The translations under genes and the position numbers were made by a program. The notes beneath the pieces are model-generated. The model did no database searches. It saw only the letters and a program-made list of their open reading frames with translations, and was not told the DNA's origin. From positions 124,001 through 188,000 of the forward strand of contig SAUG01000086.1 of the NCBI GenBank assembly GCA_011316305.1: DNA of 64,000 nt. The letters are read 5' to 3'. Shown piece after piece: positions 19,861-57,184 of this stretch (positions are counted from its first letter, which is position 1; each line of letters begins with the position of its first letter). This DNA comes from Rusavskia elegans. Lineage: Eukaryota; Ascomycota; Lecanoromycetes; Teloschistales; Teloschistaceae.

Positions 19861-20212
19861 GATCAAACCCCAGGGGCCGCCAACATAAAATAAAGATTAA
19901 CGGAAATAGTTATTATAGCGATATTATATTATATGATTATCTACCAATAATATACGTTATAATATATATTATAATATTTAATATACGTATATTCGTTATC
20001 TTTTTACTATTATCAGCAAATATGCAATTCGCTTATAGTATTTTAAAATGAAAAAAGCGCTTAGAGTCGATTGAGCCGTTTTAAACCGGTTTGAACCGGT
20101 TTAAACAAGATTATCTTATTTAGTAAATAGAAAAATTTAGATATATTCTAAAAACGTCTATTTTATCTATATTTAAAATTTTAAAACTAGATTTTTTAAA
20201 GTTTAATACCCG

Positions 20213-20622
20213 TGTAACGTTCCTATATATCAGAGGGCGTTACGCTCGAGCCTAGCTATAGCCGTAGACGTAGTCCGAACTATAAAATAGTAAGGGAATC
20301 CTAGTATAAATTATCGTAACTAATTCTATATAACTGTAGAAATATAGTTATAATATTACGAGGTATCTTTATTATAAAATAATTAAAAAGAAAATAGTAG
20401 AAATATATTTAATAATTATATTAACGACTAACGAGAGAAATTATCTATAGAAATAATAAACAATATATATAATAAAAGTAACTATAAAAGCCGATAAGTA
20501 GCTATCTATTAAAAGTTCCGTCTAGAAAGGCGGCTATATCGGCTATAGATAGCTATAGATAATTAGGTTCGTTTATCTGACTAATTTTTCTATAGAACTT
20601 CTATAGAGTTATAGACGTAATA
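20213..20622 (-). repeat. 3' LTR of the retrotransposon
   Basis: It aligns over its full 410 bp with 23773-24182, differing mainly by C/T and G/A. The internal landmark GGCGTTACGCTCGAG is shared. Confidence 0.9.
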
Positions 20623-23600: not shown

Positions 23601-23772
23601 TTATAAAGTAAAGTTCCGTTTTCCTAATTAAAGGGACGCTAAACCTTTTTACGTATTCTTCTAATATAATATTCTAAATAGCTTTTAAATCGACTAAGGT
23701 TTCTATAGATTATCTAGGTAATATTAGTTAGATAAAAATCCGATTTTTATCTATCTTCCGGAATCGTTAAAA

Positions 23773-24182
23773 TATAACGTTTCTATATATTAGAAGGCGT
23801 TACGCTCGAGTCTAGCTATAGCCGTAGATATAGTCCGAACTATTAAATAGTAAAGGAATTCTAATATAGATTATTATAACTAATTTTATATAGCTATAGA
23901 AATACGGTTATAATATTATAAGGTATCTTCGTTATAAAGTAATTAAAAAGAGAATAGTAGAAACGTATTTAATAATTATATTAACGACTAATAAGAGAAA
24001 CTATCTATAGAAATAATAAGCGATATATATAGTAAAAATAGCTATAAAAGCTAATAAATAACTATCTACTAAAAATCCTATCTAAAAAAGCGGCTATATC
24101 GGCTATAGACGGCTATAGATAATTAGGCTCGCTTGCCTGACCAATTTCTCTATAGAACCTTTATAGAATCGTGGACGTAACA
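23773..24182 (-). repeat. 5' LTR of the retrotransposon
   Basis: Partner of 20213-20622. It ends ACGTAACA next to the ACCCG duplication. Confidence 0.9.
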
Positions 24183-24586
24183 ACCCGTTAGTTCCCGTTT
24201 AATAACGGGAAATCTCTAGTTTAGAAACTAGTAAAACTAGCGTTCTATAAATAGAATTTTTAATATCTACGCTAAAAGTTTACTAGTATAGATATTTTAT
24301 AGAATACTAGTAGCTCTATTAGATAGAAAGATTTAGAGTTTTTAAAAGATTTTTTTAAAAAATTTCAAAACTCGTTCAAAGCGTTCAGACCGCTCAGAAC
24401 GTTTACGAGTAAAATTTTGGTTTATAAACGTTTATAAATAAGTCTTCTGCTCGTAAACGCTTTTATAACGCGTTAGATAGGATATAGAATCAGATCCGTT
24501 TACTATTTCAAATCTATTCAATTAATTTTAAACGGGATCGATACTTTTAGTAATGATTTTTTCTTTATTTTCGACTAGAATACGAG

Positions 24587-25162
24587 TAGACTGGCCGTTT
24601 TGTCGGGTTTCGAACCTAGAGTGGCCGTCGGGTCGGGTTTCGAACCCGAATTGGCCAATCCGATCCGGTCGGATTTCGAACTCGGATTAGTTAACCCGAT
24701 CCGACTCGTCAAGACGAGATTTTAACGCTAAACTCTAGTATAAAAGTATAATTCTAATATAAAAATTATACCGATTTATTTAAAAAATATCTAATTAATT
24801 AACCACGTTAGCTAGAAAAATTCTAGTAAATATAAATATATTAACTTAATATATTATCTATAATATTTATTTAATAAATTAATATATATAAATTAATACT
24901 ATATATAGAAAATTTAGCGGATATCCGGATTCGACTATTTAGCGGGTCGAATCGGTTCGACTCGCTAAAAAATCGAATCGGATTATAGAATTCGATAGAA
25001 ATTCGATCCGAAATGGCCAGTCTATTCGAATCCAAGATCGTATTCCGGATTCGAATATCTAACCGTATTAGAAAAAAGATTAACTTTAACTAGTAATTTA
25101 GCCGCGTTAGCCACGTTTATCGCGAAATCGGGTCGCCACTTTGATTCGAAATGGCCAGTCTA
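24587..25162 (+). mobile_element. hAT-like MITE (family 2), copy A, with 8-bp target duplication
   Basis: The termini are perfect 10-bp inverted repeats TAGACTGGCC and GGCCAGTCTA. They are flanked by the exact 8-bp duplication AATACGAG (24579-24586 and 25163-25170), the size made by hAT transposases. A second GGCCAGTCTA lies inside at 25015-25024. No coding capacity. The left third has three or four imperfect units, each with a TCGGGTTTCGAAC-like core. A relative in inverted orientation is at 49869-50333. Confidence 0.8.
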
Positions 25163-26918
25163 AATACGAGATGGAAAAAACAAATAAAAATAAATAAAAT
25201 ATAGAAAAAATTAGATATAAATATATTTATAAATTTTTTTATATTAATATATTTTTATATTAATTACGTTTTTTATATCGTTTATATTTTTTTTCTTTTA
25301 ACGAAACGAAAAAAAAATACTATTATATATCAATCTATCTATTTTATTATATAGTTAATTTAAATTTTTTTTTTTAAAGTTTCTACTATATTTTAATCCT
25401 GCCGAAATAGAGGATTTTCTATATCCGAATATTCGATTTTCGTATTAAATACGTCTGTAAAGATATAGACGAACCGTATTTTATTTTTATAAAAGAAAAA
25501 ACGAATTATAATATTAAATTCGATAATAAAATATATATATTTTTCTATTATTTTTTCTATTATTATCAATAATTATAACGGTTTATAAAATATATATTAT
25601 AGTATTTTATTTAATTAGCTAAATTTACTATTAATATCGACGATATATTAAAACGAAATTTAGTTATAGTTTTATAGTTAAATTTACGAATAAAAAAAAT
25701 CCGACGTATAGAACATTTATAGAAAGATAGAAAAAAATAGTTAGAAAATTTAAAATAATAGATTTTAAAACGGACGTTTAATAAAAATAATGAAATTTTT
25801 GAAATTATATATATATTAGAATAGATATTATAGAAATCGAATAATTGAATAGTTTAAAATATATAAATTTTAGATATCTAAATCTGTAAATATAAAAAAA
25901 TCTATTTTAAAACTTTAAACGTCTGTTAAATATATTCGTACTTTTTACAATCGATATTTATACGTATATATAAATCTACTTTTATTATATTATTTGATAT
26001 TATTAAATATTGGACGGTAGTTTAATTTAATTGATTATATTGTAAATAATTTACTATAACGATATTATTTTTCTATAGATATTATTAACTTTTTTTACGC
26101 GTTTAAATATAATTCGAAAAATTTACTAATATTCGGATTTCGAATTATAAAACGCTAATTTAATTTGTTTTTTATCTAATCTATTTTATTTTTAATAATA
26201 TTAAATATCGTTTTATTATTAATTAAAATCTTTATTTTATTTTATTTTATCGTTTTATTAAATATATTCGCTTTTTCTATATATTTTAGATTATACGCTA
26301 AACCCGACTAGCTTTGATTTTTTATTTTTATTTAAATAAATTTCAAATTCGATTAAACGAAAAAATTACGGAATTATATTATTATAGCCGATATAATTAT
26401 TATAACGGTTTTACGGGCTCGTAATTTTAATTTACGCGATAGCGAGGTCTTTATAATAGATTTACTTTTCTAGACTTTTGATTCGGAAAAACTAATATTT
26501 TAACTTTTATTTTATCGACTAGATTATAGTCGTATAGGCTGATCGATTATATCTAAAAGTTTTATATTATATATTTCAGATTTCGTTTCGGCTATTAAAC
26601 TATCTGGAATTTCTATATTTAAAAATAGCGTAGGCGGAGAATATAGTAGATAGGATTCGAAGGAATAGGGCCTATAGGAAGTTGCGGTAACGAGTTTTCG
26701 GCGCGAGGTGGGCCGGAAGTGTGCACCCAACGCCAAGGCTGGAGCTATGTTGTGCGTCATATCGAGGCTCTTCGGCATCATCGGATATAGCGCTTGTTCG
26801 CGTCTCGCCCACACTCACCCTAGTAGTGTCACCGCCTAGAGAACTCCGTAGATGTGATGGCATCAAACACCAGCGGCCGTTCTTGTGCCTGCCGGACCAC
26901 CCAAGCGAGTGGTGTCTC

Positions 26919-27723
26919 ATGGACGAATCCGATGGGGAATACGCTCCCCAATCACCCGATCTCTCTGCCTATCATTCGACCTCCTATCAACCACCAGCAC
27001 AACCACAACAAAACTCCTATTACCAACAGCCGTCGTACCATCAAGATGCATACCACTCCCCTCTCAGTTCCAAAAGCAACCAATACTCCTACGACAATCA
27101 GCCTCATCAATCTTACCAAACAGGACAAAATCCAGCCATGGGGCAAAATGGCCAGCATGATAATGAACTCCCCCCTGACAGCGCGCCAGCCAAGGGCAAC
27201 CGAAAAGGAAAGAATGCCAAAACCAAGATTGAAGACGACTGTGGCAAACCTGCGCCTGGGGTCGAAGAGGGGATCAAAGTGACCACCAAGTTTCCTGTGG
27301 CCCGAATCAAGAGAATCATGCAAAACGATGAAGATGTAGGGAAAGTGGCACAAGTGACCCCAACTGCCGTTTGTGAGTGCTCCATTACAAGATGCTAATC
27401 CATTTGAAGTGTAAGACAAGGAGCTGACGGTGATTCACTTTACAGCCAAAGCACTGGAGCTGTTCATGATCTCCGTCGTCACCAAAGCGGCCGATGAAGC
27501 AAAGTCAAGATCTTCCAAGCGAGTGACTGCTGCGCATCTCAAGCAGGCAATCGAGAAAGACGAGCAATTCGATTTCTTGGCCGAGCATGTCGCCAATGTA
27601 CCAGACGCCCCAGCGCCAAAGAAACAAGACAGCGAGGAACCCGTGGAGGGCAAGAGGAAAAGGGCAGCCGCCGGCGGAGGGGGAGGCACGAGACGGAAGA
27701 AGAAGACCGACGATGAGCTCTGA
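26919..27723 (+). CDS. BUR6: negative cofactor 2 alpha (Bur6/DRAP1), histone-fold transcription regulator
   Basis: Exons 26919-27372 and 27446-27723 give 243 residues. The 73-nt intron (GTGAGT...TTACAG) splits the Ser codon in AV-S-KALELF. The histone fold is unmistakable: [30 protein letters not shown], then [20 protein letters not shown] and [20 protein letters not shown]. Bur6 pairs with NC2-beta (Ncb2/Dr1), binds TBP on DNA and blocks TFIIA/TFIIB entry. The first 100 residues are a Tyr/Gln/Ser-rich low-complexity extension ([17 protein letters not shown]). The C-terminus is a basic Gly-rich tail. The ATG lies about 270 bp from the RIP block edge, yet the gene shows no RIP damage. Confidence 0.9.
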
Positions 27724-28230
27724 CTGGTCACGGTGTGCGGCTTGGTTAGGCGTTGAGGTGTTCCTGGTGGCAGTGAGGCACAGCGGGATCAGTAGACCGT
27801 GTTCAAACTTCTTGAAAGCTACCATAGCTAGCAGTGATACCATGAGCGCTTTGACTCTAGCTTAATCAACCATTCGAACAAGCGACGGTAGAACATCGCA
27901 ATATCAATTTCCTGGTTGTGAGGTCGTAAGCCCTGTGCGAATGAACAGATGTGACTGAGACTTCAGTCATCGTGAAGGGCAGGACAAAGCTGCGTCTCGT
28001 ATAAACCTGAAATCCAGACCTACTGCACATTGCCCGTTAACTCGTTCTTAACAGTGAATAGGCAGGTAAAGTAAGAAGTTTTTACTCGTGTTACCGATTC
28101 CGAATCGTCGACTTTAAGGTCAGGACCCACAAGTAGGGCTAGCGGCAAGCTTGGATCACGTGATCTTCATCTGATGCGCGATCAGAGACGCGCTTTCCTC
28201 ATTCTATACATACATGACGTTGGTGCAGAT
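27724..28230. other. intergenic, promoter region of FHIP
   Basis: No gene seen. It carries the palindrome at 28154-28165. Confidence 0.5.
28154..28165. promoter_or_regulatory. 12-bp palindrome GATCACGTGATC
   Basis: A perfect CACGTG-centred palindrome 66 bp before the FHIP start codon, the second of three TCACGTGA motifs in the window. Probable bHLH site; inference. Confidence 0.4.
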
Positions 28231-31295: not shown

Positions 31296-31382
31296 TAGTC
31301 CTGCTGAGGATCGAACTCAGAACCTTCTCGGATTGTATTCAGCTATGTGAACGAGAAATCATAACCATTAGACCACAGAACT
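31296..31382 (-). tRNA. tRNA-Val (anticodon CAC) with a 14-nt anticodon-loop intron
   Basis: The acceptor stem AGTTCTG/CAGGACT pairs over 7 bp. The D-arm is GTCT-AATGGTTA-TGAT, the anticodon stem TCTCG/CGAGA, and the T-arm CTGAG-TTCGATC-CTCAG with an intact B box. The 21-base anticodon loop reads TTCACA, then a 14-base intron, then C. Removing the intron after position 37 gives a 7-base loop with CAC and a 73-base mature tRNA. A T5 terminator follows. This is the normal nuclear tRNA intron position, cut by the tRNA endonuclease. Confidence 0.9.
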
Positions 31383-39070: not shown

Positions 39071-40030
39071 TGTTAAAGGGTGTTAGGTTTGATAGGAGGT
39101 TTTAGAAGGAGACGTGAGTGCAATTGCTGGAGGGGTACGACTGTTGTTAATTCTCGAGCTTCGTTAGCTTTTTCTACATACTCAAGGGACCCGGACATCT
39201 GGGATTGTGGCCTTTTTTTCTTTTCGAGGTATTATTAGAAGGCGCGAATAGGATGTACTCTCATGGCTGGAGGTAGCGTAATTTCTCGACACTTCAAGAG
39301 CAGAGATGACTGATCTGTGCGCAGCGGCATGGTTACTCCGTACAAGGGGAGAACATTGCAAAACGCCCTTATACCTTCGGGACAGGAGTGGATATCGAAA
39401 ACACGGCACGCATGTAGATGGTTTCAAACTTGCTAGAGCGTTGATTGGATGAGCCGCAGAGGATAGCAGGGTTGCAGACGGCACGATGGAACGTTTTCCA
39501 AACACTAATTTGACTTACTCGTATAAGTTTATAGTGACAAAATTGATTGCTTTAATATAGCAATGAATGAAGCCTACTCACCTCGTGGAACACCAATAAG
39601 AGGGTGGAAGGAATAACATGGGTCAAGTACAAGCTGGTTGGATGAGGCTGGAAGTAGAGTACTACGTAAAACTTCTCTGACAATACCCGCAAAAGCAACC
39701 CGCGAACAAGGGGTTTCATACATGAGGTGGAGTGATAGAGAATTGCGCGTTAAGAAGGGAATCAGACGGCCAATCATGTGGCCAGATACTTAGTCTGTGA
39801 AGAAAACCACTCTTGTACAACTGCGGCCAAAAGACCGTAGATGGCAGTATTCAGCCGCATGATTGCATGTGTCTCAGGATACGTAGCAGGACGAGGCTGC
39901 GATGTTTGTACCAAAGGTCAGACGCAGAATTTAGGAGTGATATCGTATTGCCTCAGCTTTCAGACTCCCTTCCCAGTATACGACCTTAGCTTTCGCGCCG
40001 GCCTTCGGCCTTCCCGCTTCCGGCCTAGAT
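39071..40030. other. intergenic, upstream of the LysM gene up to RIP block 2
   Basis: No gene supported. It contains the second direct-repeat copy. Just before the block edge lies a GC-rich palindromic string (GCCGGCCTTCGGCCTTCCCG, about 39999-40018). Confidence 0.45.
39376..39491 (+). repeat. direct repeat flanking the LysM gene, copy 2
   Basis: Counterpart of 37974-38095; the same landmarks in the same order. Confidence 0.6.
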
Positions 40031-43000
40031 CTATAAAAACGGTTAGATCTCCTATAAATAGCGCTTATTAAATTAAAAGAGGCAAAAAGCTAATTACGAA
40101 AGTTATACTAGTAGAAAGTCTAAATTTAATTCTATAAATTTCGGACAGGTTAGTATTTAATTAAAAATTAGTTCTTTTTTATTATAAATAATAATAAAAG
40201 TATATGATTTAAAGATAAATTATATTAATATTATATATAAAAATAGAAAAATATCGATAGTTATTAACTAATTATTTAATTAATTATTTTTATTATTTAT
40301 TTTAGCTAAACCTATCTATTTTAGTAAATTCTAATATTTATTAGAATCTATCTTCTAGTAGAACTACTTTCTATTAGTTCTAGAATAGCTAAATTTTAGA
40401 AGCTAGATTAAAATATAAAAAATAGATAATAATATAAATACCGGCGCGATTGCGGATAGATTTAAAAGCCGGAAAGTAAATAAAAAGCGATTTAGCGGAA
40501 CGACGGGTAGATCTAGAAGTTAAAAAGTAGAAAAATCTAGAAACCGAAAAGTAGATAGATTTAAAAGATTTAAATATAAAATTAGAAAAAAACGTCCGCG
40601 TTTAAATAAATTTAGAAATAGTTTTATAGGCGGAAGTAACTATCGATTTTTTAATAAATTTAGTAATGGATTTATTAGGAAAAGTAGAAACTAATAGCTA
40701 TATATAAACTTTTTTTAGAAACGGTTTTTTAATTAAACTATTATCCGATAATTTAAATTAAAAAAATTTAGATAAAAAGAAAAAGCTACTATTATAATCC
40801 GGTAATTTATATTAATATTTAAAACGATTAGTAAAAGGCCTATAGCTTTAAATCTTCGATTCTAGTCGATAGATTTTATTATAAATAGAGATTTATATTA
40901 TATAGACGTTCTTTTTTTTTTAAAAGATATATTAGAAACTTTAAAATATTTAAAAGATAAATATATTTTAAACCGGTTTTCGTATAGATTTTTATCTTTA
41001 TATAAATTATAGATTTCTTTCTATTCGCTATAAATTTAGATATCGCTATATATAGATTTTAGATATATATTTTTCTAGTTATTTTAAATCTTTATTTTAA
41101 ATATATTATCTAAAAGAGCGCGAGTTATATAGATTCTTCTATAGCTATTAAAGTCGTAAAACTAATATTAATTAAATTATTTTATAAAAAAGGCGCCGGA
41201 AATAAAAACTATTCTAATAGTTATATTATCTAAATAAATACTATAGATTAAAAAATTATAGATATCTTTTTTATTAAAATCGGTATTTATATATAGAACG
41301 TAATAATTATAGTTTTTAAGAAAATTTCTAAATAGATAAATTTTAATAATAGTCTAAATATTAGTAATTAGAATTTAAACGGAATAGTATATAGTATTAA
41401 ATTTAGAAATTAAATAAAATCTATAGTATATAATAATATTTAGTAAAAAAAAATTATTTTTATAATATCAATTTAAATTTAAATAGTTAAATTAAAGATT
41501 TACTTGTTATATCTTTAATATTTTTTATATCGGTTTTAAAAGTTTTCTAAACAATAGAAAAATTAGAAATAAAATTTCGAATATTATATTCGCGAATATA
41601 GAAATTCGGTAACTTTAGATTTTTAGAAATTTTAGAAAATTTTAGTATTTTAGACGTTTCTAATATCTTTAGTATCTTAGATTTGTAAATAGAAGTTTTA
41701 AAATATTTAAAATTTAGATATTTTTTTAATAGCTTTTTAAATTTTTTAATAGTTTTTTCTTTATTTTTATCGTCGGAATAATTAGATTAAAATAGAAAAT
41801 CCGAAAACTAGTAGTTAAAATTATTATAAAAAACTTTCGCCTTTAAAGAAATTATAGTAGATAGATTAAAATAGATAGATAAAAAGGTCGACTATTTATT
41901 AAAAAAAGCTCGAAAAAATAGCTATAAAAGAAGTATATATTTCTATTATTTATTCGGAAGCTAGAATTAAATCGAAATAAATTAAATCTACTATAATCGT
42001 TTTAGAATTAAAAGCCGACGTTTTTAATATAAATTTTTTAGAATTTTCCGCTATAGCGAAGTAAATTATCTAGTTAACTAAAAATAGATTATAAAAGTTT
42101 AAACTAGTAAATTATAGCTAGAAAAGCTAGAAATGAAGAATAAAATAAAAAGTAAAATTTAAAATCTAAAATATCGAATTAAAGATTCACTAATATAAAG
42201 ACTATAGAGAAAATAAGACGTTATATTATAAATAGAAATATTTATTTAAACTATAATAATTATAAATAAATAAAATAAAATTATAATAATTTAATAGTAA
42301 TAAAAAGTCATTAGTAGACTATAGAACGAGGCGTATATATAAACGATAGTTCTATTCCGCTATAAAATTAGTAAATATATAGTTAAAATCGAATAGAATA
42401 TAAATAGAAATTAAAATATATTACGTAACTTTTGTTATTTTATTACTTTTTAAATTTCCTTTTTTTTTATTATATTTTCTTTTTTTTTAGCTATAAATAG
42501 AATAAAGTTTTATTAATAAAATATTAGATTTATACTATCTAATAAAAACTTCGAATTTATATTTTTTTAAAAGATAGTAGTTTCTATAGAAGATATAGTT
42601 TTAATTTTATTTATCAATTTTATTACCGGATCGTATAATAATATCTAAATCGCTAAAAAAACTAACCGATAGATTATATAATAATTTTCGAAAGAAAACT
42701 AGTATATTATAGTAAAAAATTTATTAAATAAATACGATTATATAATCGATAATCTTTATATTATTCTAGACGAAATATATTTTATATTTAAATAATATAA
42801 TTTATAGAATATAGAATTTTTAGATATCGAAATAGCGATTAAAAATCTAGATTCGGTTAATTTAGAAAATCTAAAAAAATATCTTATTAAAATACGGAAT
42901 CGAAAGATAGATTTTATTAAATTTCTATAAAAAAATTAGAAATCGTTTCTAGTAGATATAGAATTAAATAGGAAAAACGAAAGGTAATTAAAAGAAATAT

Positions 43001-46000
43001 TAGCTCTATCTACTAATATATCGATAGCTAATATTAAAAAGCTTTTATCTTTAATTATATTAAAGAGGTTTTAAAAAATAGACCTAAAATAGAAAATAGC
43101 CGGCGGATAATATTAGCGGATCTAGTATAAATAAACGAAGTATTAATAAAAAAAACTAGCCGTAAAAACCGGAATCGTAGAAAATAGTATAAAACTTTTA
43201 GCCGATTTCGAAATAACGAAAGTCGAAATAAAGTTATTTAATAAAAAATCTATTAAATTTCTAGTTACCGAACTGGAAATAAAATATATACTATAATCGA
43301 GATATTATTACTATAAACGGCTAGTTATATTAGTAGAATTTTTATCTAAAAATAAATTAAAATAGATATCCGAATCGCGTTAAAATACCGAAGATATAGT
43401 AGATAAACTAGAATTATCGTCTTCTATTAATAAACTATAAATATTATCGAAATATTAAAAAAAAAGATAAAAAAAGATATATATATTTATATTTTTTAAA
43501 AAATAAAAAATCGAATATTATATATAATAAGCAATATCGTATATTTATCGACTAATTAAAACTAATTATAGATAAATAAATCGTTATTCCGGAATTAGAA
43601 ATTATTTTATATATATTTTAAATATCTTTATACTTTTAGTAGATATATCGATCTAGTTCTAAATCGCGTAAACTATTTAAAACTATAGATACGATTCGAA
43701 AAATATTATAATAACCGCGGTCGTATATAGAAATTTAAAATAAATAAAGCTATCTATTATTAGATTATATAGTCGTATAGATCTAAAATTATAAAAAATA
43801 TATTATTTATATATATTTACTAATCTATTATATCTAGTCTTTTTATTAAATTAGATATTAATTGGAAGACGTTATTTTTCGATAATATCGGTAGATATAA
43901 TAATTAGTAAACTTGGTTTAAAAATAGTACTATTAATATTTCAGAAATTTTTAGTTAACTATTTAATAGAGTCGAATATAATAGAAAATTTAAATCGGTT
44001 ATTAGAAATTTAATTCGAAAGAATTTTAATATATATTTATATTATTAAAAGACTCGAAATATAATATTTAATATAGATTAGCTATAAATAATAGTCTACA
44101 GTCTGATATAATAATTTATACGATAAAATTTAACGTATTAACCATTATACGTCTATATAAAACTAGATAGTAATCTTTATTTAATTTTCTATTTATATTA
44201 TATTAAATATACTAACGAAAGATATAGTATCATTTTTTACTATATAGATATAAATATCGATAAATATTTATAAAATACGAATTATAGTAGTAAAAATATT
44301 ATATAAAACACGCTATCTTTAAATAACGAAACTAAAAATAGCTATTTAGTATTAGTATAGGGTTTCTATAAATATATCGAATTATAATAGAACTTTATAT
44401 ATATCTATAGCCAGAAAACAGATAGCTACGTATTTAATATAAAAAAATGATATATAAAAAAGAATATAGAAAGGTTTAATAACTATATAAAGGTTTTTTA
44501 CTCTCGAAATAATATACGGATTTCGCGTCTAAAGTTTCCGTATATTTCTATATTTTATAGTATATCTGCTAGCTATTAAACGGTTTTTCTATAGTTTATA
44601 GATATTTATAATAAATATATTAAATTGGATAATAAAAAATTTAATATCTAATCCGAACTGGCTATTTTTTATATTAGTTTTATAGCGTCTCTGCTAACGC
44701 CGTCTAGCTATAATAATAAATTCGGTTCTATATTATATAAACTCTCTACGGTAATAATTTTATAACTAGATTTAATAGTAAATAATACTTTGATTTATAG
44801 ATAATTATAGTAAAATCCTATTATTAAAATATAGGCTAATATTTTCTTTAATATTAATAGAAAAAAAGTAAAAAAAACTATTCGAATATAGAAGATATCG
44901 GCGCTAAAAGTTTTTAAAACTTCTTTTAAAAATATATAGTAGATAGAAAAGATTGTTTTTAATAAAAATAGTTTTTTTAAAAAATAAATCGTAAAGCGAA
45001 AAGAAAATTTTTAGACTAAAGTTAAATTTTTAATAATATTAACTATTAGTTCTATAATTTTTTAGACGTCTATTAATATATAGTAATCGAAATTTAATTA
45101 ACTATCCTTTTTATAATACCGCGGAATTAGTCGATTTATTATTTTTTTATCTTTATTTAAAAATAATAATATAAATATTATATATAATATTTATATCTAT
45201 TTCCTTTTTACTAATACGTTTATATTTACTATCGTCTATTTAATTTATTTTAACTATAGTACGTTTATCTTCGCTATCGTCTGTTCTATCTAATAAAATA
45301 AACCTTAATTATATTTTCGATTAGTAATAAATATTTTCTATTTTATTAGCTTTTATATTATTTTTCTTTTCGTCTAAAAATAGTATCGCGTCTTTTATCG
45401 TATTTTCTTTTTTTTTCTACCGCCGATTTATATCTTTATAACTATTTTCGTTTTAATATTAATAGTCTTTTAATAATATATTTTATATTTTTCTATATTC
45501 GCTATTTAGATTCGCTAGACGATAACTCTATTTATAAAAAATATCCGTTAATTTTTTATAACCGCTTTTTACTACTTTTTTTTCTACTCCGAATATATTT
45601 TTATTTTAGGCGTCGCCTGCTTTTAAATAATATTTAAAAAGTATATAAGATTTTTAATACGCTATATAAATTTTATTAGATAGTTTTTATCTTTTTAAAA
45701 TGATTTATCGAATTTAAAATAGAATATAAAATACGATAGATCTATAATAGTTTCTTTAACTATATATACCGCGATTTTATTAAAGAAAAAACCTTCGAAT
45801 CTATTATAGATAAGGAATAGAAATACGTGATAGCTAATTTAAACTAGATATATAGAATTTAAATTTATCGAAAAGAATTTCTAGTTTTAATAATATATAA
45901 TTTTATCTATTTTCGGAATTTTAAAACTATTAAAAATTTCGATTCGTTTAAAAATATACTAGATTTTAAATAGTATATATTTTATTTGGCCTTTTATTAT

Positions 46001-47834
46001 ATCTAGTAATTTTAGTAGATTTTTCGTTATTCGGTATTCCCGTGTAATTTTATAAAACGTTTTACTACTTTAGTTATAATCCTTTATAATTATCTATATT
46101 CTAATAGGTCTAATAACTTTTATATAATTATCCGACTATACTTTTACTACGGCGATATTTATCGAAAGATTATTAACTTTCTAGCTATTTTCGGTTTAAT
46201 AAAATTTTATTAAATTTTATAGTATAAAATCTTTAAACTAACCGGCTATAGATAATAAACGATATAAATAGTAGATAGCTATTTCTACTTTATTCTTTTA
46301 TACGATAATTATAATTTCGAAAAAGGCCGATATAATAAAAGAATAGATAATATTTCTAAATATCGCGATATTACTATATTAATCGGATTCGAAAATTAGA
46401 GTCGAAACGTTTTATATTTAATTTAAAATATATAGTATTCCGAATAGTATCTATTTTCTATTTTTTAAATCGCCTATAATATTTAAAAACAGACGATAGA
46501 TATATAGATAAACTAATAGAAAGTAATTATATTTTTATTTATTTACTTTTTTATAGATACGTCTATTTTATATAATATTAGCTTTTAAATCTCTTTTCGT
46601 TAACGAAAAATATAAAGATACTCGCTATCTATAAATAGTATCTATACTATAGTTAGATATTTTTTTTAAATATCGAATAGAATTTTTTACTTTAACGTCT
46701 ATAATAATCGACGAAAGTATAATAAATAATAGCTTTAAAATAATCACAAATATATTTATTAATTAAATTAAAATCGATATCGACGATATTATTTTTAAAT
46801 TCTATTTTCGATTTATTATTAGAGATTTTAAAACCTGGAATCGAATAGAAAACTATAAATATTTTAAAGGTAATATTTTTTATTAATTTTTTAATTAATT
46901 ATAGTAGCTTTTTTTTAATATTAGATTTCAGTATCTTTGGTTTAATATATTATAGCTGATGAATAAAATATATTAGAAAATAAAATAACTAATTAACTTT
47001 TTTATATTATAGTATATAGTAGACTATTAGATACGAATTTAATTTATATAATCTAATAAATTCCAAAAACTAAAAAAATTAATTATCTATAATTACTATT
47101 CCCGTATTATTAATATTTAACTAACGACCGTCCGCTAATAAAAGATCGCGTATATTAAAAAGGCTAATATCTATATGATTTAGTTATCTAATAGTAAATA
47201 AGAAATTTAAACTATTATATTATATATTATCCGCGAGAAATTTTATCTAAAATATAATTTTTATATATTCGGTTTCGATCCGGTTTTCCGGAATTAGAAA
47301 TTCGAAAATTGTTTGAATTTTTATTTTATAGTAGAACTATAATTAATACTTCGGTATTCTATTAAATACGGTAATATTAGTTTTTTTCGTTTTATTTAAC
47401 GTCGGATTACTATAATTTTCTAGATCGAGCCGGCTAGTATTCTATATTATATTAGAGTTTTTCTATAAATCTTTTATATAGTAGATTTATCTATAGTATC
47501 TAAAAACTTCTAGAATAAAATATATATTAACTATTTTATTAATACTAGAAATAATATAGATTTAAAAGATAAAATAAACCGTCTATTGGAATTATATAAT
47601 CTAAACCTTATAATCTTCTAGCGAAAACGTTTATAATTTTCGACGAATAGCGATAAATTACTATAGAATTAGTCGTTAAATAGTAGTTATTTTATATATT
47701 TAAAGTTAGTTATTAAATATATTTTCTACCGTTTTACGTTCGGATAATATCTAGAAAAATCGTTTACCGAAAACGTTTAAAATATAGTATAGTATCTTTT
47801 ATTTAAATTACTCGTATCTTTATCTATAGATCGC

Positions 47835-48383
47835 ATCAGCAAAAATGTCGACCTCGTTCAAAGTTAATTGAACAAGTCTGAACTGGTAAACGGGTCTGAT
47901 CCTATATCCTGCCTAGCGCGTTATAAAAGCGTTTATAAGTAAACCTTTTATTTATAAACGTCTACGAGCAAGATTTTAGCTTATAAGCATTTATAAACGC
48001 CCTGAACGCTTTAAACGAGTTTTAAAATTTTTAAAAAAAATCTTTTAAAAACTCCAAGTCCCTCTATCTAGTAGAGCTACTAGTATTCTATTAAATATCT
48101 ATACTAGTAAACCTTTATCGTAGATTTTAAAAATTTTATTTATAGAACGCTAGCGTTGCTAGTTTCTAAACTAGAGGCTTCCCGTTATTAAACGGGAACT
48201 AACGGGCACTAAACCTTAAAAAGTTTAATTTTAAAATTCTAAATATAGATAAAATAGACGTTTTTAGAATATTTCTAAATTTTTCTATTTACTAAACAAG
48301 ATAATCTTGTTCAAACCGGTTCAATCGATTCTGAGCGCTTTTTTCATTTTAAAATACTATAAGCGGATTGTATATTTACTGAT
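47835..48383 (-). mobile_element. small non-autonomous DNA element (family 1), copy B, uninterrupted
   Basis: 549 bp, the reverse complement of the split copy at 20012-24554. The ends ATCAGCAAAAATG and TATATTTACTGAT form imperfect 12-13 bp inverted repeats. It preserves the empty site of the LTR insertion (sequence around GTGCCCGTTAGTTCCCG on the reverse strand). No coding capacity, and no certain target duplication. Confidence 0.7.
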
Positions 48384-49868
48384 ACGACTTTCTATTAATT
48401 TAATAGTAAATCTTTTTATTAAAGATTTTAAAAAACTAGAAGATTTTATAATTAATTATAATAACTATTTGGTTTCCGATTTAGCTAATATTAATATTCC
48501 GGAAAAGTTTCCCGTTAATTTTAATAAAATCGAAATAATAAAAATAATAGATTCTAATAATTTCGAATAAACTAATAATATATAATCTTTTATATTTATT
48601 ATTTAATTGGTATTTATACCGCGGTATCGTAAAATTAGATTTATTTTAACTAGTTTATTTTTATATATTTATAGCCGCCTTTTTTTATATTTTTTCAAAT
48701 TTTTCTTTCTATTTAGACTACTAGACGATAGTTCTAGTAATTCTAATATTATATATCCTTTTGAAATTAGTTCGACTATTTTAAACTATTACCGGCGTTA
48801 TTTTATATAGCCTATTTAAATCGCTTTAGCAAATTTCTAACTCGAGCGTCCTTTTTCGCTATTATTACTACTAATATCGAAATTATCTCTATTAACTATA
48901 AATATATCTATACTAATAGAACCGGGCTGATTTTCTATTACTAATTATTTTTTATCGATTTTACTATATTTAGCCTTTATTTTTTATAGCCGATAATTTC
49001 TAGTAATAATCTATAATATATAATAGTCTTTAAACTTTTCCGTCTAGATTTTTTGATTATCTTTTATCTTTATTTCTTTAGCTTCTACGCTGGTTTTTAT
49101 ATTTAATAATACGTTTACTATTTTTTTATAACCGATATCTAATATAAATTTTTTCTATAATAGTTCGAAAAATTCTATTTAATAGTATAATAAATTTAAC
49201 TATTTATTTTTAATTTTTTTTCCGATTATATTTTTATTATCTATATTATCCGTCTAAATTACTATTTTTCTAAAAAATTTTATTAAATAGAATTAAAAAG
49301 ATAATATTTAATATTTTAGATTAATTAAATATTTCCTTCGCCTTTTAAACTTTCTATTCTTTTAGAACCGAAAGAAACTAATTAACTTTCGATATATTCT
49401 ACTATCCGGCTGTTTTTCCGATTTTTTTTTTAGATATTTATATTTTTAAATAATAATTTAATAATCTAAATAGTAAATACTACAATATAGATTCGGTTTT
49501 ATCTAACTATTCGCTTTATATTTTTTATTATCGAAAAATTTTAGATTGATTTTATAAAGATAATATCTAAATGAATTTATTATATAAAATAATTCAAATA
49601 TTAAATCGCGTTTTCTATTTACTTTTTACTTTTTTTTTATTATCTTCGGTTAAATAGTATTTTTAATTTTAGATTCGATTTTCCTTTTAATATATACGTC
49701 TATATTACTATTTAACCATTTTATCTAAATATTATCCGATTTATAAACGGTTTTTCGTCGATTATTTAATAGTTCTTTATACTACTTTTAGTATAGCTAT
49801 ATAAAATATATTTATTCGTTTACTTTTCGTATTATAGGTCCGAGTCTTTAGTATATAGCTACTAGAAC

Positions 49869-50333
49869 TAGATTGGTTACTTCGGTACGAGTTTTCGTCG
49901 GTATTTAAAATTCGACCCGATTTCTTGGCGGATTAAACCGGTTCGATTCGCTAAACGGTCGGTTCCGGATCGAATTCGAAAACCCGATAGAAATTCGCTA
50001 AATCTTTATTATAATTTAAATATAATACTTTTTATTATATTTTAAAACTTATATTAGTAATATAATTAAATAACGTATTTAGTTTAACTAGAACTTTTCT
50101 ACCTAATATAGTTAATTAATTAGAAATTTTTAAAATAAATAAATATAATTTTTATATTAAAATTATCTTTTTATTCTAGAGTTTAACGTTTTAGCGATTC
50201 CGAATCGAATCGAATCGGTTCCTCGACTAGGAATCGAAAACCCGTCGGTTCGATATCTAGAAAAATCGGAACCGATTCGGTTCGAATCCGGAATACGAAT
50301 CCGGATTCGAAATCCGACCCGACGGCCAATCTA
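49869..50333 (-). mobile_element. hAT-like MITE (family 2), copy B, with 8-bp target duplication
   Basis: The termini TAGATTGGTT and GGCCAATCTA are the copy-A termini after C-to-T/G-to-A change. They are flanked by the exact 8-bp duplication ACTAGAAC (49861-49868 and 50334-50341). The internal sequence is related to 24587-25162 in reverse orientation. Confidence 0.78.
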
Positions 50334-52349
50334 ACTAGAACGTCTATTATTAACTATTAATATACTATTCGAATATTCGGATTATTAATTTCAAATCTAT
50401 ATATATCGATTATAATTAGTATTTTTAGACTATTATAATCTATAGAAAGCCGAAGAAAATTAGTACTAATTTTTTCTCGGTTAATCTCTATTATTACTAC
50501 GAAAAAAGATTTTATAAAAAATAATTTCTACGCCGGATATTCTAGCTACTTTATCTATATCCGGAACTATTTATACGTTAATTTATTTATCTAGCCGAAA
50601 TTAATATAAATAATCGATATTAGTATATTCTATAGTTCAGTAATTTTTATAAATAGAATATATTATAAGTTTTCTATTATTATCTATATATATTTTAGTT
50701 TATTCGTTTATATATAGATTTCTAGCTAATTTAATATAAGTTTTAAAATAGTTATTTCATTATTAAAACGATATATTTTCTTTACTATTACGGTTTCGAA
50801 TATTATAAAAATAGCGAAAAATAGTAATCTATTCGATAAACGTATTCGTAAAACGTTTAGATTAAAATATTTCGGCCGGAAACCTGACTATTTAAATATA
50901 AAATAGAATTCGTTAATAGCTAATAGATTTACTTTGTTTAAAAAGTTTTTATAGTTTAAAACTATATCGTTAAATTATTTAAAAATAATAATCTCGGAAC
51001 TAGTAAAAATAAATTAATTAGTTATTCGAAATTTTTAAAAATATATAATGATTTACTATATATATAGATTTTATTTTATATATATTTTAGAATTTCTTTC
51101 GAATTATATACACTATATAGTACTAACGGGTTACTATTCGAAATTAATAGAAATTTGCTATACTTTTTTTTTGTAATATAAATAACGATATTACTATTAA
51201 TATAAACGTTTTTTTAATTATTTAAAAATAGTAGAATTTAATATAGTAAACTTTTACTAAATCTAGTTTTAATAGTAATAATTAAATCGTTTTTTAAAAT
51301 TTATTTTAAAGTTTAAATCTATAGTTTTTTCGTTTCGAAATTAAAGTATTTACAGATTTTATTTCTAATATTATTTAATACTATAACCGTTTCTATTACG
51401 CTATTTATCTATTTTCTATCGATTATAGTACTAGACGATTTTAGTAATATTATAAATTTATAGATTTAAAAAATTAATATTATATATTTTATTTTATCTA
51501 GTATTTATATTAATATTTAAATTAATTTAATATCGAAAACGATTTATATAAGATTTACAAATACTTTTATTTTACTATTATTCAATTATTTAACCAAATT
51601 TTATTAATTTAATAGATTATTATATCCGGCGTTCTAATTACTTTTATAAGTATTTAATATTTTTCGGATATTTTATATAATTAAATTTTACGCCGAATCT
51701 ATTTTTATATCTATTTAATACTATCTAGTAATATTCGATTTATTAAAATCTAAAAAATAATTAAATAATTATATTTATTTAAAGTAAATAGTTAATATAT
51801 TATATATTTTCGATCCTATATTTTTATTCTATTATTTTTTTTATTTAATCTAGTAACGGATATATATATAGACGTAAATATTTATAAATTTAATAAATTC
51901 TATTTTCTAAATATTATATATATTAGTTAAAATTAATACTATTTTAACTAAATTTTATAATTTTAAATTTAATTTTATAAATAACGAAATTTTTTTATAC
52001 TAATTCTAATACTAACTATATACGGCTATAGTCTAGACTCTAAAAGCCTAGTTTAATACTACGTTCTAGTTTCGGTTTAGTTTCCTGTTAGCGCCGAAGT
52101 AAATTTCTAGTCGGAGCAGGTCTGAGGGCTGAGGCAAATATCGTAGAGATTGGGTGGGACCCAATCTGAGCAGTCAAGTCTCAGTGATCAGACCACAAAG
52201 CGCTAGCCGTTTTTGAACAAAAGAATCAATCCGGACGATCTTCGGCAAATCTGTCGCGCCTCGCGAGGCTTCACCCAAAAGTTGAAATGTGCAAACACAA
52301 AGTGATCAGGGTACTGTAAGAGTCCTCAATCTATATACAAAACCCGAAC

Positions 52350-54216
52350 ATGTCTCTTTCGATACCCAATGCGCCCAACAGTGGACTCTTCAAGCCAGGT
52401 TACAACAAGTAAGACAACCGCACGCACGCTCCAGCCTTGAACATTTTCTGACAATTGGGACAAAATAGCTACGATTCCGAAGACGGCGCCGTCATACGAA
52501 ATATAGAAGCATGTCGAGCAATCGCCCAAACCGTTCAAACCTCCTTCGGTCCCTACGGCCGCAACAAAATCGTCATCAATCACCTCCAGAAAATGATCCT
52601 CACCTCGGACGCAGCCTCCATCCTCAACGAGCTCGATGTCGTACACCCCGCCGCGAAGCTCGTCGTCATGGCCAGCCAGCAGCAAGAATCCGAGATCGGT
52701 GACGCTACGAACATGGTCATCGTGCTGGCGGGCGAGTTGATGCGGAAAGCCGAGGAATTGATCCGGATGGGTCTCAAGACCAGCGATATAATACAAGGCT
52801 ACGAGAGGGCGCAGAAAGAAGCATTGAGAATCCTTGATAGTATGTCAAGCATACGCCGCTGTAATCCGAAATGCGGTCGATTGCTAAGACAATACTGTAG
52901 ACCTCGTGGTCGACAAAGTCACCGACATCCGCTCCCAGACCGAGCTCGAAAAACCCATCCGCACCGTCGTCGCCTCCAAACAATCCGGCTCCGAAGATGA
53001 TCTCGCTGGCATGATCGCCGAAGCCGTCCTCGCCGTCCTCCCCAAAAATCCCATAAACTTCAACGTCGACAACATCCGCGTCGTCAAAATCATGGGCGGC
53101 TCCCTCGACCAATCCCGCGTCGTCAAAGGCATGGTCTTCGGCCGCGAACCCGACTCCAGCACCAAAAGAGCCAAGAACGCCAAAGTCGGCGTCTTCAGCT
53201 GTCCCATCGACATCAGCCAGACAGAAACAAAAGGCACCGTACTCCTACATAACGCCAAAGAAATGCTCAACTTCACCAAAGGCGAAGAAACCCAGCTCGA
53301 AGCCGCCGTCAAAGAACTCCACGACAGCGGCCTCCGTGTCGTCGTCGCCGGCAGCACCGTCGGCGAACTCGCTCTTCACTACCTCAACCGCTTCGGCATC
53401 CTCGTCATCAAAATAATGTCTAAATTCGAACTCCGCCGTCTCTGCCGCGTCGTTGGCGCCACGCCCCTGGCTCGCCTAGGCGCCCCCATGCCCGACGAAA
53501 TGGGCAAAGTCGACATCGTTGAGACACTGGAAATTGGCGGCGACCGCGTGACGGTCTTCAGACAGGAAAACGATGCCACTCGAACAGCCACCCTGGTCAT
53601 CCGAGGCGCCACGCAGAACCATCTCGACGACGTGGAGCGAGCGATCGACGACGGCGTCAACGTCATGAAAGCCATCACCCGAGACCCAAGACTGGTACCC
53701 GGGGCCGGCGCGACAGAAATGCAATTAGTAGAGCGAATAAGTGCGTATGGCGAAAAAACCCCCGAGTTAAGCCAACATGCGATCCGCAAGTACGCCGAAG
53801 CTTTCGAAGTCATCCCCAAAACACTGGCGGAGAGCGCAGGGCTAGATGCCACCGAGGTATTGGCGAGATTGTACGCTCGACATCACAAAGCGGCCAAGAC
53901 TGCAGCGATGAAGGCCGACGATACTTCGTCTGGAACGTCGTCGGAATCGTCGCAATCGTCGGAAGATGAAAGTACTGAGGAGGAGGATGACGCTGGGTGG
54001 ACGTTGGGGGTGGATATTGAAAACAATGATGGAACGGGGACATTGGATGCGAAGGAAGAGGGGATCTTGGATTTGTTGATCTCGAAACAGTGGGCGATAC
54101 GGTTGGCGACGGAGGCGGCGAGAACGGTGCTGAGTGTGGATCAGATCATCGTTGCGAGGCAGGCCGGGGGTCCGAAGCCTCCGGCGCAAGGCAATCCTAA
54201 TTGGGATGAGGGTTGA
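52350..54216 (+). CDS. CCT8: chaperonin CCT/TRiC subunit theta
   Basis: Exons 52350-52408, 52469-52839 and 52901-54216 give 581 residues. Splicing yields FKPGYNN-YDSEDGAVIRNIEA and RILDN-LVVDKVTDIRS. Landmarks are TSFGPYGRNKIVINHLQKMI, TSDAASILNELDVVHPAAKL, SEIGDATNMVIVLAGELM (nucleotide-binding GDxT), ISQTETKGTVLLHNAKEML and RLVPGAGATEMQLVERISAY. These identify the theta subunit of the cytosolic two-ring chaperonin that folds actin, tubulin and others. Oddity: near the C-terminus the family's usual short loop before GVDIEN is expanded to a Ser/Asp/Glu-rich stretch of about 35 residues (DDTSSGTSSESSQSSEDEST). There is no RIP damage despite the neighbouring block. Confidence 0.93.
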
Positions 54217-54638: not shown

Positions 54639-56468
54639 CTATTGCGGCCTCAGAGAACAACTGAAAACATTCCGCACCCACCAATCCACCATCGTCTGCA
54701 GCGTCCACTCCTCCTCGACTCTTTCCTGCCTACCTATCGCACCCACCTTCTCCAGTTTTCCCTTCCCACCCGCCAACCCCTGCTTCTCCCTCCACTCCTT
54801 CTCGGCCTCCAGCCCCGCCGCATTGACCAGCGCATCCTCATCCTCAGCCCGATAAAGATCACACTTTTCACACTCCCGACATCTCCCCGCCTCATAGCGG
54901 AAATGCTGGCAGAAATGCTGATACCCTTCGCCACCTTCCATGGGCCCTAAACCCTGGCGGCAGACATAGCACATGACGTATCCGCAGACACAGGTTAATT
55001 TATTGCAGCCGCTGTCTTTGATGAAGCCAAGGCCACATTTAGGGCAGGTGCGTTTGAGGGCGGCGGTGCGTGCGGCTTCGATCGTGGTGCGGAGCTCGAG
55101 GACTTCGGATTCGAAGCAGGTGTGGGGGTCGCGCCAGGGTTTGGAGCAGTTGGTGCAGGAAAGGGTGAAACAGGTGGGAGAACGGCATTGGAAGCGGGCT
55201 GGGAATTGTTTGATGTTTGCGAGCCGTGTGAGGGCGGTTTGAAATAGAGAGGTAACGGAAGGCAGCCTTGTTGATTTGGATGGTTGGCAGCTCCATAAAA
55301 GGTAAAGGAATAGAAACGGCATACATACTACGGCCAGAATGGTGTAAGTAAGTGCTCGGAAAGGATGATTCATATCGAGATGGTACTGAAGCGTGCCGGT
55401 AGGAAGGTATAGATCCCTGGCTTCAGCGTAAGAACATACTGGACAGCGTACCAGCGGTACCTGTGCGATAGTCAAGGCTTCCTCTGCTAAGCGTGACTCG
55501 AATCGAGTGACCAACTGTACCCCTTTTCTGGACTCATAAATGGCACGTTGTGTTGCATTATGGGGAATACAGCCCTCGCAGTTGTCGTCCGTTGTAAGTG
55601 CCATGCAACGAAGTAGACCTCGATCATGGTGAATGTTGCGATCCCAGCCCTGACCAAACAGTGCCTCGTTGATGGAGTTGGAGATACAGCTATAGCAGAT
55701 CATATGGACTGATGCAGTGCATTCCGTCATGCGCTCGAACGTCGTGGCAGAGAAGCAACACCCACATTCAAAAAGGGCTTCGGCATCTTCAGCTTCTTCT
55801 AGATTTGTTTGCAGGGCTAAAATCCAATCCTTGTCCTCTTGCTGAGCTTTGTATTGAGCAAACAGAGGAGCAAGGACTGTCCTTTGAAGCTCATCATCGA
55901 GTTCAGCGTCTCCAGTCGCCTTCAGGATTGGCAGGAAGGAGCCATCGGTTGACTTGATCCATCCTATCATAGCATGCTTTTCTGTCTCATCCTCGGACCT
56001 TCTGGTCCATCTCGAGAAGAATTTGCGGAGGGATGAACGCCAATGCTTGGACGCTATTTTCTTGAGGACTGGTCTCGCCAAAGTATAAGAGTGGTTCTGC
56101 TCGGCCAGGACGGCCTTCACTGTGCTTTTGCTCAACGTCTTGAACTCTTGGAGCAAAGCTGCTTTGACTGCCCATTTGTAGCTGTTGCGCCTGAAGAGAT
56201 CTGCTTCCGGGATTTGCGAAACATCGATTGCATCCGCCTCGGTCCGCTCAACAGCAGTCCTCCATCGACCTTTGACCCACTCGTCCTCCTTCTTTAGTAG
56301 TTGATATGCTACGATTTCTAGACGACTTTCCCCATCGAATCTAAGGAGCATTTCTCGGAAAACATCGGGGAGTACATTGGGGAAGATCTTGACAAGGACT
56401 GCCAACTCGTCGTTGAGCTCATCCAGTCGATGCTCATCTGGAGCATCTTGACCATCAACAATAGTCAT
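54639..56468 (-). CDS. RBR-type (RING-IBR-RING) E3 ubiquitin ligase with N-terminal CUE-like region
   Basis: A single exon encodes 609 residues from the ATG at 56468 (MTIVDGQDAPDEHRLDEL). The frame is open about 30 bases further up but without an ATG. Residues about 15-60 (ELAVLVKIFPNVLPDVFREM) resemble a CUE ubiquitin-binding helix bundle. RING1 begins ECGCCFSATTFERMTECTAS. IBR-like Cys pairs follow (RCPVCSYAEA, then CRSPTCFTLSCTNCSKPW). RING2 is CPKCGLGFIKDSGCNKLTCV with CGYVMCYVC; the Cys in SGCNK aligns with the catalytic Cys of Parkin-type ligases. A hydrophobic stretch (ILAVVCMPFLFLYLLW) between domains may be a membrane anchor. It transfers ubiquitin by a thioester step; substrate unknown. 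Confidence 0.82.
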   Translation of the reverse strand: MTIVDGQDAPDEHRLDELNDELAVLVKIFPNVLPDVFREMLLRFDGESRLEIVAYQLLKKEDEWVKGRWRTAVERTEADAIDVSQIPEADLFRRNSYKWAVKAALLQEFKTLSKSTVKAVLAEQNHSYTLARPVLKKIASKHWRSSLRKFFSRWTRRSEDETEKHAMIGWIKSTDGSFLPILKATGDAELDDELQRTVLAPLFAQYKAQQEDKDWILALQTNLEEAEDAEALFECGCCFSATTFERMTECTASVHMICYSCISNSINEALFGQGWDRNIHHDRGLLRCMALTTDDNCEGCIPHNATQRAIYESRKGVQLVTRFESRLAEEALTIAQVPLVRCPVCSYAEARDLYLPTGTLQYHLDMNHPFRALTYTILAVVCMPFLFLYLLWSCQPSKSTRLPSVTSLFQTALTRLANIKQFPARFQCRSPTCFTLSCTNCSKPWRDPHTCFESEVLELRTTIEAARTAALKRTCPKCGLGFIKDSGCNKLTCVCGYVMCYVCRQGLGPMEGGEGYQHFCQHFRYEAGRCRECEKCDLYRAEDEDALVNAAGLEAEKEWREKQGLAGGKGKLEKVGAIGRQERVEEEWTLQTMVDWWVRNVFSCSLRPQ

Positions 56469-56679
56469 TGGCACGGTTACAGAGATAGATCCCAACGTCC
56501 TCTGACAGTGTTGGAGAGAACATTGACATTATGAATTTCCATATGAGATTGGTTGAAGACCTACGCAGGTCGCAGCTTCCTGTCCGGAAAGCTAATGAAA
56601 TGAATTGCGGGCACAACAAATGCTGTCAGCCAACGAATGCGACAGCGAACTCTGACGTGGGATGCCCGTTTAAAGAGCC

Positions 56680-56684
56680 AAAAA
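56680..56684 (-). terminator. RNA polymerase III T-run after tRNA-Pro
   Basis: TTTTT on the minus strand, a few bases beyond the tRNA 3' end. Confidence 0.6.
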
Positions 56685-56689
56685 GAATT

Positions 56690-56844
56690 GGGCTCAGCCG
56701 GGATTTGAACTGAGGAGATATTAGTGAATGATGAATCGAATAGGAAGTAGCGCCACGCACCCCGGGGCCTGCCACATTTGAAACGTTTTGGAAAACATTC
56801 AGGAAAACCCCGAAGCGGCAATCATACGTCTAGACCACTGAGCC
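56690..56844 (-). tRNA. tRNA-Pro (anticodon CGG) with a canonical anticodon intron plus a spliceosomal-type intron in the T-arm
   Basis: The acceptor GGCTCAG/CTGAGCC pairs over 7 bp with discriminator C73. The D-arm is GTCT-AGACGTA-TGAT, the anticodon stem GCCGC/GTGGC (one G-U), and the loop TTCGGG-[32-nt intron]-T. The variable loop is AGGCC. The T-arm CCGGG / TTCAAAT / CCCGG is perfect only if the 51 bases at 56710-56760 are removed. With both inserts out the tRNA is 72 bases. The A box is intact, but the B box GGTTCAAATCC is cut after GG. A T5 terminator follows. D-loop position 18 is C rather than the near-universal G, which may mean the gene is drifting. Confidence 0.8.
56710..56760 (-). 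other. 51-nt spliceosomal-like intron inside the tRNA-Pro T-arm
   Basis: It starts GTGCGT, contains ATTCACTAATATC (CTAAT branch consensus 16 bases before the end) and ends CTCCTCAG. Length and signals match the mRNA introns of this window (47-92 nt). It lies exactly between positions 53 and 54 of the tRNA. It does not form the bulge-helix-bulge expected for a tRNA-endonuclease intron at the normal site, which is already occupied. Confidence 0.7.
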
Positions 56845-57184
56845 ACGTAACACTCGTCAGGTTGGAAAGTATCTTTTTATTTTTGTGTCTTACCTTGAGT
56901 CATGTCTGAGATATGTGTTTCATCCCACCTCTAACCGTCCAAGACAACGACCTCTTCACAAGTGCCATTGTTCCCCACCTCAGTCTGATGTTCTTTGATG
57001 CCGTTGATGATTGATCGAATCTGCTCCTGCTATTACTGATTGATTTGATGCGCCTCAATAGCAAATGCTTCCAAATTTCGTATGATATGTTCTAGAAAAT
57101 CGCTTGATACTTTTGTTGCTGGAGGCATGAGATCGAACGAATCCTGTCTTTTGCTTCTTGTTATCCGTCTCTACCTGCTCCGCG
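56845..57184. other. intergenic
   Basis: No supported gene; short frames only. Confidence 0.4.

Follow-up and report, generated by a model that had tools for sequence, protein, structure and literature searches.

The window analysed here is a 64,000-nucleotide stretch of a Rusavskia elegans contig (SAUG01000086.1, positions 124,001 to 188,000 of the forward strand), whose encoded CCT8 protein shares 99% identity with a R. elegans protein and 96% with one from Xanthoria parietina. AT-rich blocks at positions 20001-28000 and 40001-52000 (GC content of 19-34% per 4 kb) lie between blocks of normal GC content. Default ARAGORN and Rfam at its gathering score reported no tRNA in the window. On the minus strand, however, a tRNA-Pro(CGG) gene interrupted by two insertions ends 222 nt from the start codon of a protein-coding gene, whose product is 94% identical to a R. 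elegans protein. The features of this locus are as follows.

56690..56844, minus strand: tRNA-Pro(CGG) gene, interrupted twice, running from its 5' end (56844) to the discriminator base C73 (56690) (sequence, Rfam, ARAGORN and scanner)
56828, minus strand: C at position 18, where the usual base is G (sequence and 27 plain tRNA genes)
56810..56812, minus strand: anticodon CGG (ARAGORN without the 51 nt)
56777..56808, minus strand: canonical tRNA intron of 32 nt at 37/38 (ARAGORN comparison)
56710..56760, minus strand: spliceosomal-type intron of 51 nt at 53/54; donor GTGCGT, acceptor CAG, and a branch-like motif CTAAT 10 nt from the intron end
56701..56711, minus strand: B box restored where the intron ends, from the intron's last AG (56711-56710) and TTCAAATCC
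56680..56684, minus strand: run of five T just 3' of the tRNA gene, resembling a Pol III terminator (sequence)
54639..56468, minus strand: next gene downstream; long open reading frame, RING/RBR-like by its Cys-rich stretches, ATG at 56468

The initial annotation had described a tRNA-Pro(CGG) gene with two insertions, and its coordinates and sequence features agreed with ours. With both insertions taken out, the acceptor stem pairs at 7/7 positions and the anticodon stem at 5/5 (one G-U), and removal of the 51 nt restores a T-stem of 5/5 pairs, as had been claimed. ARAGORN called tRNA-Pro(cgg) once the 51 nt were removed, whether the canonical intron was kept or not, and called no tRNA at this locus with the 51 nt retained. 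The Rfam tRNA model aligned to the span from end to end, passing over both insertions, at 16.5 bits, which falls below its gathering score of 29 bits. Since intron and exon alike end in G, the 53/54 junction can be read in two registers, one of which yields GT...AG. In the predicted fold of the unspliced precursor, the acceptor stem is paired and the cloverleaf arms are absent from the minimum-energy structure, which is unremarkable in stability (z of -0.95).

The C at position 18, also pointed out in the initial annotation, proved to be both real and an outlier, since the D loop contains GG in all 27 plain tRNA genes that we used as a reference set. The strict detector that collected the set itself required only one G in the D loop. 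The counts were made after removal of six overlapping loci, and some ARAGORN calls (L009, L012, L013, L016 and L023) escape the detector. A 37/38 intron is present in 21 of the 27 plain genes. The C18 substitution should weaken both the contact between the D loop and the T loop and the A box of the CGG gene.

A second interrupted tRNA-Pro gene in the same genome

We searched the 44.2-Mb assembly (217 contigs) for relatives of this gene. A pattern combining the D arm and the anticodon arm of the tRNA-Pro (22 fixed bases, with as many as 3 mismatches allowed) matched only the CGG gene in the window, and no other tRNA-Pro(CGG) copy was found in the genome searches, a check that the initial annotation had proposed. 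The reason for this single match came out once the pattern was split. The anticodon-arm pattern matched 13 times in the genome and 3 times in the control; the genome matches include the CGG gene and a tRNA-Pro(AGG) gene on contig C193. The AGG gene carries a canonical intron and, between positions 13 and 14, a 53-nt insert of the form GTACGT...CTAAT...CAG. A tRNA-Pro(TGG) gene on contig C170 carries only an 18-nt canonical intron, and its D arm is too divergent for the combined pattern. Thus, two of the three tRNA-Pro genes found contain a GT-AG insert, at different positions (53/54 and 13/14).

C193:135408: anticodon arm of tRNA-Pro(AGG), one exact match, with a T arm starting 44 bases on
L007:1033-1085: 53-nt insert of tRNA-Pro(AGG), GTACGT...GCTAATCGTCCCACAG

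The AGG gene reads GTCCGAG TG GTCT, after which come the 53-nt insert, AGTGGTATGATTCTCGCTTAGGG, a canonical intron of 18 nt and finally the 3' half. ARAGORN called tRNA-Pro(agg) only with the 53 nt removed, and the register of this insert is unique. The D loop is normal, and the acceptor stem has one mismatch (A6-C67); acceptor pairing of 6/7 also occurs in 2 of the 27 plain genes. On either side of the insert stand GAGTGGTCTG and GAGTGGTATG, which we read as tRNA sequence and which may be a duplication. A 14-nt direct repeat (79%) at L007:1004-1017 and 1160-1173 flanks the whole AGG gene and may be due to chance. The AGG anticodon-arm pattern had one genome match at 0-1 mismatch, and at 3 mismatches three further matches ending in CTTAGGG. 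The CGG and AGG genes were each met a single time in the genome searches, on separate long contigs of 394 and 355 kb.

The initial annotation had suggested looking for relatives of the 51-nt insert in tRNA or protein genes. A second example at another position, in tRNA-Pro(AGG) of the same genome, makes the reading of the inserts as spliceosomal introns much stronger.

Among the matches examined, the other patterns brought up no further gene of this kind. The D-arm pattern matched 26 times in the genome and 23 times in the control; among 20 matches examined besides the CGG gene, one was a tRNA-Ala(AGC) gene and 19 passed no tRNA test. The T-arm pattern had 78 matches against 17 in the control; three loci were added to the examined set from it, and others of its matches resemble tRNA T arms. 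GGTTCRANYCC occurred 639 times against 226 in the reversed control. A pattern for a split B box had 56 matches against 16 in the control; by eye, about 45 of these belong to one AT-rich repeat family ending in AGTTCGAATCCCG, found in L065-L094 among others. The scanner found no split tRNA among the 30 of the 56 that were examined, the CGG gene being another of the 56.

Survey of tRNA genes and controls for chance

The scanner drops candidate GTRNKT...CTRAY...YAG segments and then demands a whole tRNA. Across the window and 298 kb of fetched loci, its matches with a dropped segment were the CGG and AGG genes only, with the CGG gene appearing five times in the output because of overlapping loci. 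It also detected a tRNA-Val(CAC) gene at 31296-31382 on the minus strand, with a 14-nt canonical intron, that had escaped both default ARAGORN and the Rfam gathering score. When 32 kb of the window with normal GC content was dinucleotide-shuffled 200 times (12.8 Mb, both strands), the scanner returned 0 split and 0 plain tRNAs.

These controls bear on whether the genes could be an assembly artefact or a cloverleaf drawn by chance. The finding comes from one draft assembly, which would leave room for such an explanation, but the lack of chance matches in 12.8 Mb of shuffled sequence and the presence of the same kind of insert on two long contigs make it next to negligible.

The census of tRNA genes scored 62 of 2276 candidates, yielding 44 rows, of which 33 were above the cut-off; it missed the Ala(AGC) gene, the Val(CAC) gene and all three Pro genes. 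Few isoacceptors were met more than once in this incomplete census. At two loci (L116 and L117), tRNA-like genes have insertions of about 90-120 nt by eye, with hairpins, close to the anticodon loop. The U6 of the host genome matched over a single unbroken 103-nt stretch, and therefore the precedent of an intron in U6 does not lie in the same genome. A scan for viral contigs found nothing.

The inserts have the signals of U2-type introns

The CGG and AGG inserts share a GTRCGT donor, a CTAAT motif 10 nt before the end and a CAG end, at lengths of 51 and 53 nt, and by eye the two show no likeness beyond these splice signals. We compared them with the two introns of the CCT8 (TCP1-theta) gene in the window.

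52409..52468, plus strand: CCT8 intron 1; GTAAGA, CTGAC, TAG, 60 nt
52840..52900, plus strand: CCT8 intron 2; GTATGT, CTAAG, TAG, 61 nt

Both inserts have a fungal-type donor (GTRNGT) with a YAG acceptor, a branch motif (CTRAY) at the usual distance and a length near that of host introns (60 and 61 nt, with only these two as reference), all as in U2-type introns. When the inserts were shuffled, GTRNGT, CTRAY in place and YAG came together in 1 of 600,000 shuffles for CGG and in 0 of 600,000 for AGG. Counted over 202 kb, the donor hexamers standing before branch and acceptor motifs showed no enrichment over a reversed-sequence control, which is a poor one (GTGCGT 3 against 4 in the control, GTACGT 6 against 7). 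Introns at the canonical site of plain genes had GT...AG ends, in any register, in only 1 of 21 cases, and that one is 13 nt long. The anatomy of the two genes, their splice signals, the occurrence of two cases and the lack of chance matches are direct observations. As for the earlier proposal of an mRNA-type intron, its core stands, namely an insert with splice signals at a noncanonical site beside an ordinary tRNA intron, and the loss of the B box that went with it does not.

One alternative is that the tRNA-splicing endonuclease excises both inserts as ectopic tRNA introns, comparable to those of Cyanidioschyzon and archaea, and that their GT-AG ends are coincidental. That eukaryotic tRNA introns are known at many positions, according to the available part of one report (PMC3978253), fits such a view of inserts at 53/54 and 13/14 rather than at the canonical 37/38. 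A bulge-helix-bulge was found at neither: in a crude test, the CGG insert gave a central helix of at most 2/4 pairs, and the AGG insert gave 3/4 pairs but no complete outer helix. We treat this result as a weak negative because the canonical CGG intron fails the same test. The rarity with which shuffling produced the splice signals counts against coincidental ends, and we consider endonuclease cleavage of these inserts very improbable.

Self-splicing and mobile introns were also considered. No group I or group II intron family of Rfam matched 56640-56900 at E<=1, and 51 nt is too short for the core of either. The initial annotation had mentioned the introner-like elements of Dothideomycetes; the host is not a Dothideomycete but a lichen fungus of the Teloschistaceae. 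A 201-bp query covering the CGG locus had one genome match (with very common words skipped), and no direct repeat of at least 8 nt was found around the CGG insert; hence, nothing at this locus points to an introner.

Promoter elements and probable transcription by Pol III

It had been proposed that the CGG insert breaks the B box, so that a live gene would depend on another route of transcription. We reject the destruction of the B box: the intron's final AG followed by TTCAAATCC reads AGTTCAAATCC, which re-creates the B box across the intron end. An A is the first B-box base in 4 of the 27 plain genes, the tRNA-Val(CAC) gene of the window included. Since the B box is re-created and others also start with A, the CGG gene would require no special transcription route. 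The B box of the AGG gene is uninterrupted and starts with C, as it does in 2 of the 27 plain genes. The distance between A and B boxes is lengthened by the insert in the CGG gene, and a larger distance is tolerated by TFIIIC. An intron can thus enter an internal promoter and leave it unbroken, as the final AG at 53/54 replaces the first two B-box bases. The A box is altered by C18 in the CGG gene and split by the insert in the AGG gene; the latter counts against efficient use of the AGG gene by Pol III.

A run of four or more T lies within 25 nt of the 3' end in 26 of the 27 plain genes, and the CGG and AGG genes are followed by T5 and T4 runs, respectively. TATA-like words stand upstream of 14 of the 27 plain genes and of the AGG gene; upstream of the CGG gene is an 80% AT stretch without TATA. 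With AT-rich or TATA-bearing upstream regions, a B box that is either re-created or uninterrupted and a run of T behind, both genes are most likely transcribed by Pol III.

Alternatively, the inserts could be introns of Pol II transcripts in which the tRNA sequence lies within a 5' leader or a long noncoding RNA, splicing serving the mRNA or freeing the tRNA. For the CGG case, the leader would belong to the gene with its ATG at 56468, which lies on the same strand at the distance given above, and Pol II transcripts are the normal substrates of the spliceosome. The T runs just behind both tRNAs and their tRNA-like upstream regions argue otherwise, and we hold an origin in Pol II transcripts to be improbable.

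Are the two genes functional?

In both genes, the cloverleaf returns on removal of exactly the GT...AG segment. In two nearby coding sequences, CCT8 exon 3 and the gene downstream of the CGG tRNA, CCC is the commonest proline codon (18 of 38). Together with the single genome match of the AGG pattern at 0-1 mismatch, this codon use indicates that tRNA-Pro(AGG) is probably needed, and judging from its sequence the AGG gene is likely functional. The CGG gene may be functional as well, though less surely. Neither gene is proven essential, as tRNA-Pro(TGG) might read the other proline codons by wobble.

The introns could also be genuinely spliceosomal and the tRNA genes that hold them dead or dying, with poor intron removal from dispensable isoacceptors while tRNA-Pro(TGG) carries the load. 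Consistent with decay are the C18 of the CGG copy, where every plain gene has GG in the D loop, the acceptor mismatch of the AGG copy and the existence of a Pro(TGG) gene with a canonical intron alone. C18 is a genuine argument for decay of the CGG copy and not of the AGG copy, with its normal D loop. Decay of both would require two GT-AG inserts in two dead genes, whose stems are otherwise paired and whose canonical introns are in place, and the abundance of CCC codons speaks for a need for Pro(AGG). On balance, we regard the loss of both genes as unlikely.

Discussion

Introns of nuclear tRNAs are treated as the task of the tRNA endonuclease. Our preferred reading, to which we assign a probability of roughly 0.7, is that the inserts at 53/54 of tRNA-Pro(CGG) and at 13/14 of tRNA-Pro(AGG) are U2-type spliceosomal introns in Pol III genes, and that the transcripts are processed by the spliceosome and then by the tRNA endonuclease. 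From sequence we infer which polymerase acts, that the spliceosome takes part, in what order the steps run and that the products function. In the proposed pathway, the spliceosome would remove the GT-AG intron in the nucleus, which would let the D and T arms fold, and the tRNA endonuclease and ligase would then excise the 37/38 intron. Because the endonuclease needs a folded tRNA body, action of the spliceosome first would be the natural order.

The canonical eukaryotic introns at 37/38 have their counterpart in both genes, each of which has one too; the second insert differs from them in position, length, splice signals and presumed enzyme. According to the available text of the tRNAscan-SE 2.0 paper, a eukaryotic tRNA gene has no more than a single intron (PMC8450103), to which Cyanidioschyzon, with multiple tRNA introns, is an exception (PMC3978253, available part). 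As far as these two sources describe them, the tRNA introns of Cyanidioschyzon merolae and archaea resemble the present ones in lying outside 37/38, the D and T arms included, and in numbering more than one per gene (PMC3978253, PMC8450103). They are described as having bulge-helix-bulge motifs for the tRNA endonuclease, whereas the present inserts have GT-AG ends and a branch-like motif, and a search for a bulge-helix-bulge found none. In a nucleomorph, some ectopic tRNA introns lack a defined bulge-helix-bulge, according to the available part of the same paper (PMC3978253).

Closer parallels come from other non-mRNA genes. Spliceosomal introns occur in lichen rRNA genes, and yeast also removed them from Pol I transcripts, as the accessible portion of one paper states (PMC8527467); the introns in rRNA genes of lichen fungi are there attributed to Bhattacharya 2000. 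Like these, the inserts described here would be mRNA-type introns removed by the spliceosome from a structural-RNA gene outside the Pol II system in a lichen-forming ascomycete. In the rRNA case, as there described, the genes are repeated and transcribed by Pol I, whereas the tRNA genes were each found once and are probably transcribed by Pol III. The U6 RNA of S. pombe, a Pol III product, is spliced by the spliceosome, according to the portion available (PMC8917221). From what that source relates, U6 differs from the present case in being itself part of the spliceosome, while the RNA here is a tRNA that also bears a canonical tRNA intron. Among the papers listed in a literature search, judged by titles and abstract openings and with most subscription journals outside its scope, none reports a nuclear tRNA gene with a spliceosomal intron; passages of further papers contained no such report either.

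What appears to be new is that tRNA genes join the known cases of spliceosomal introns in non-mRNA genes, with introns that we take to be real, beyond chance and present in two genes. If this is true, tRNA would be added to rRNA and U6, and the presence of both kinds of intron in one tRNA gene would demonstrate that the spliceosome can act on a tRNA precursor. It would also be part of the reason that tRNA genes of such genomes escape standard tools.

For the biology of the host, these findings suggest that the spliceosome helps to make some of the tRNAs of this lichen fungus. A broader possibility, which we entertain with some doubt, is that several tRNA genes of the lichen lineage, needed ones included, carry spliceosomal introns and that the spliceosome takes part regularly in tRNA maturation. 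If so, tRNA supply would depend on the activity of the spliceosome, in the way that has been proposed for lichen rRNA introns in connection with slow growth and drying.
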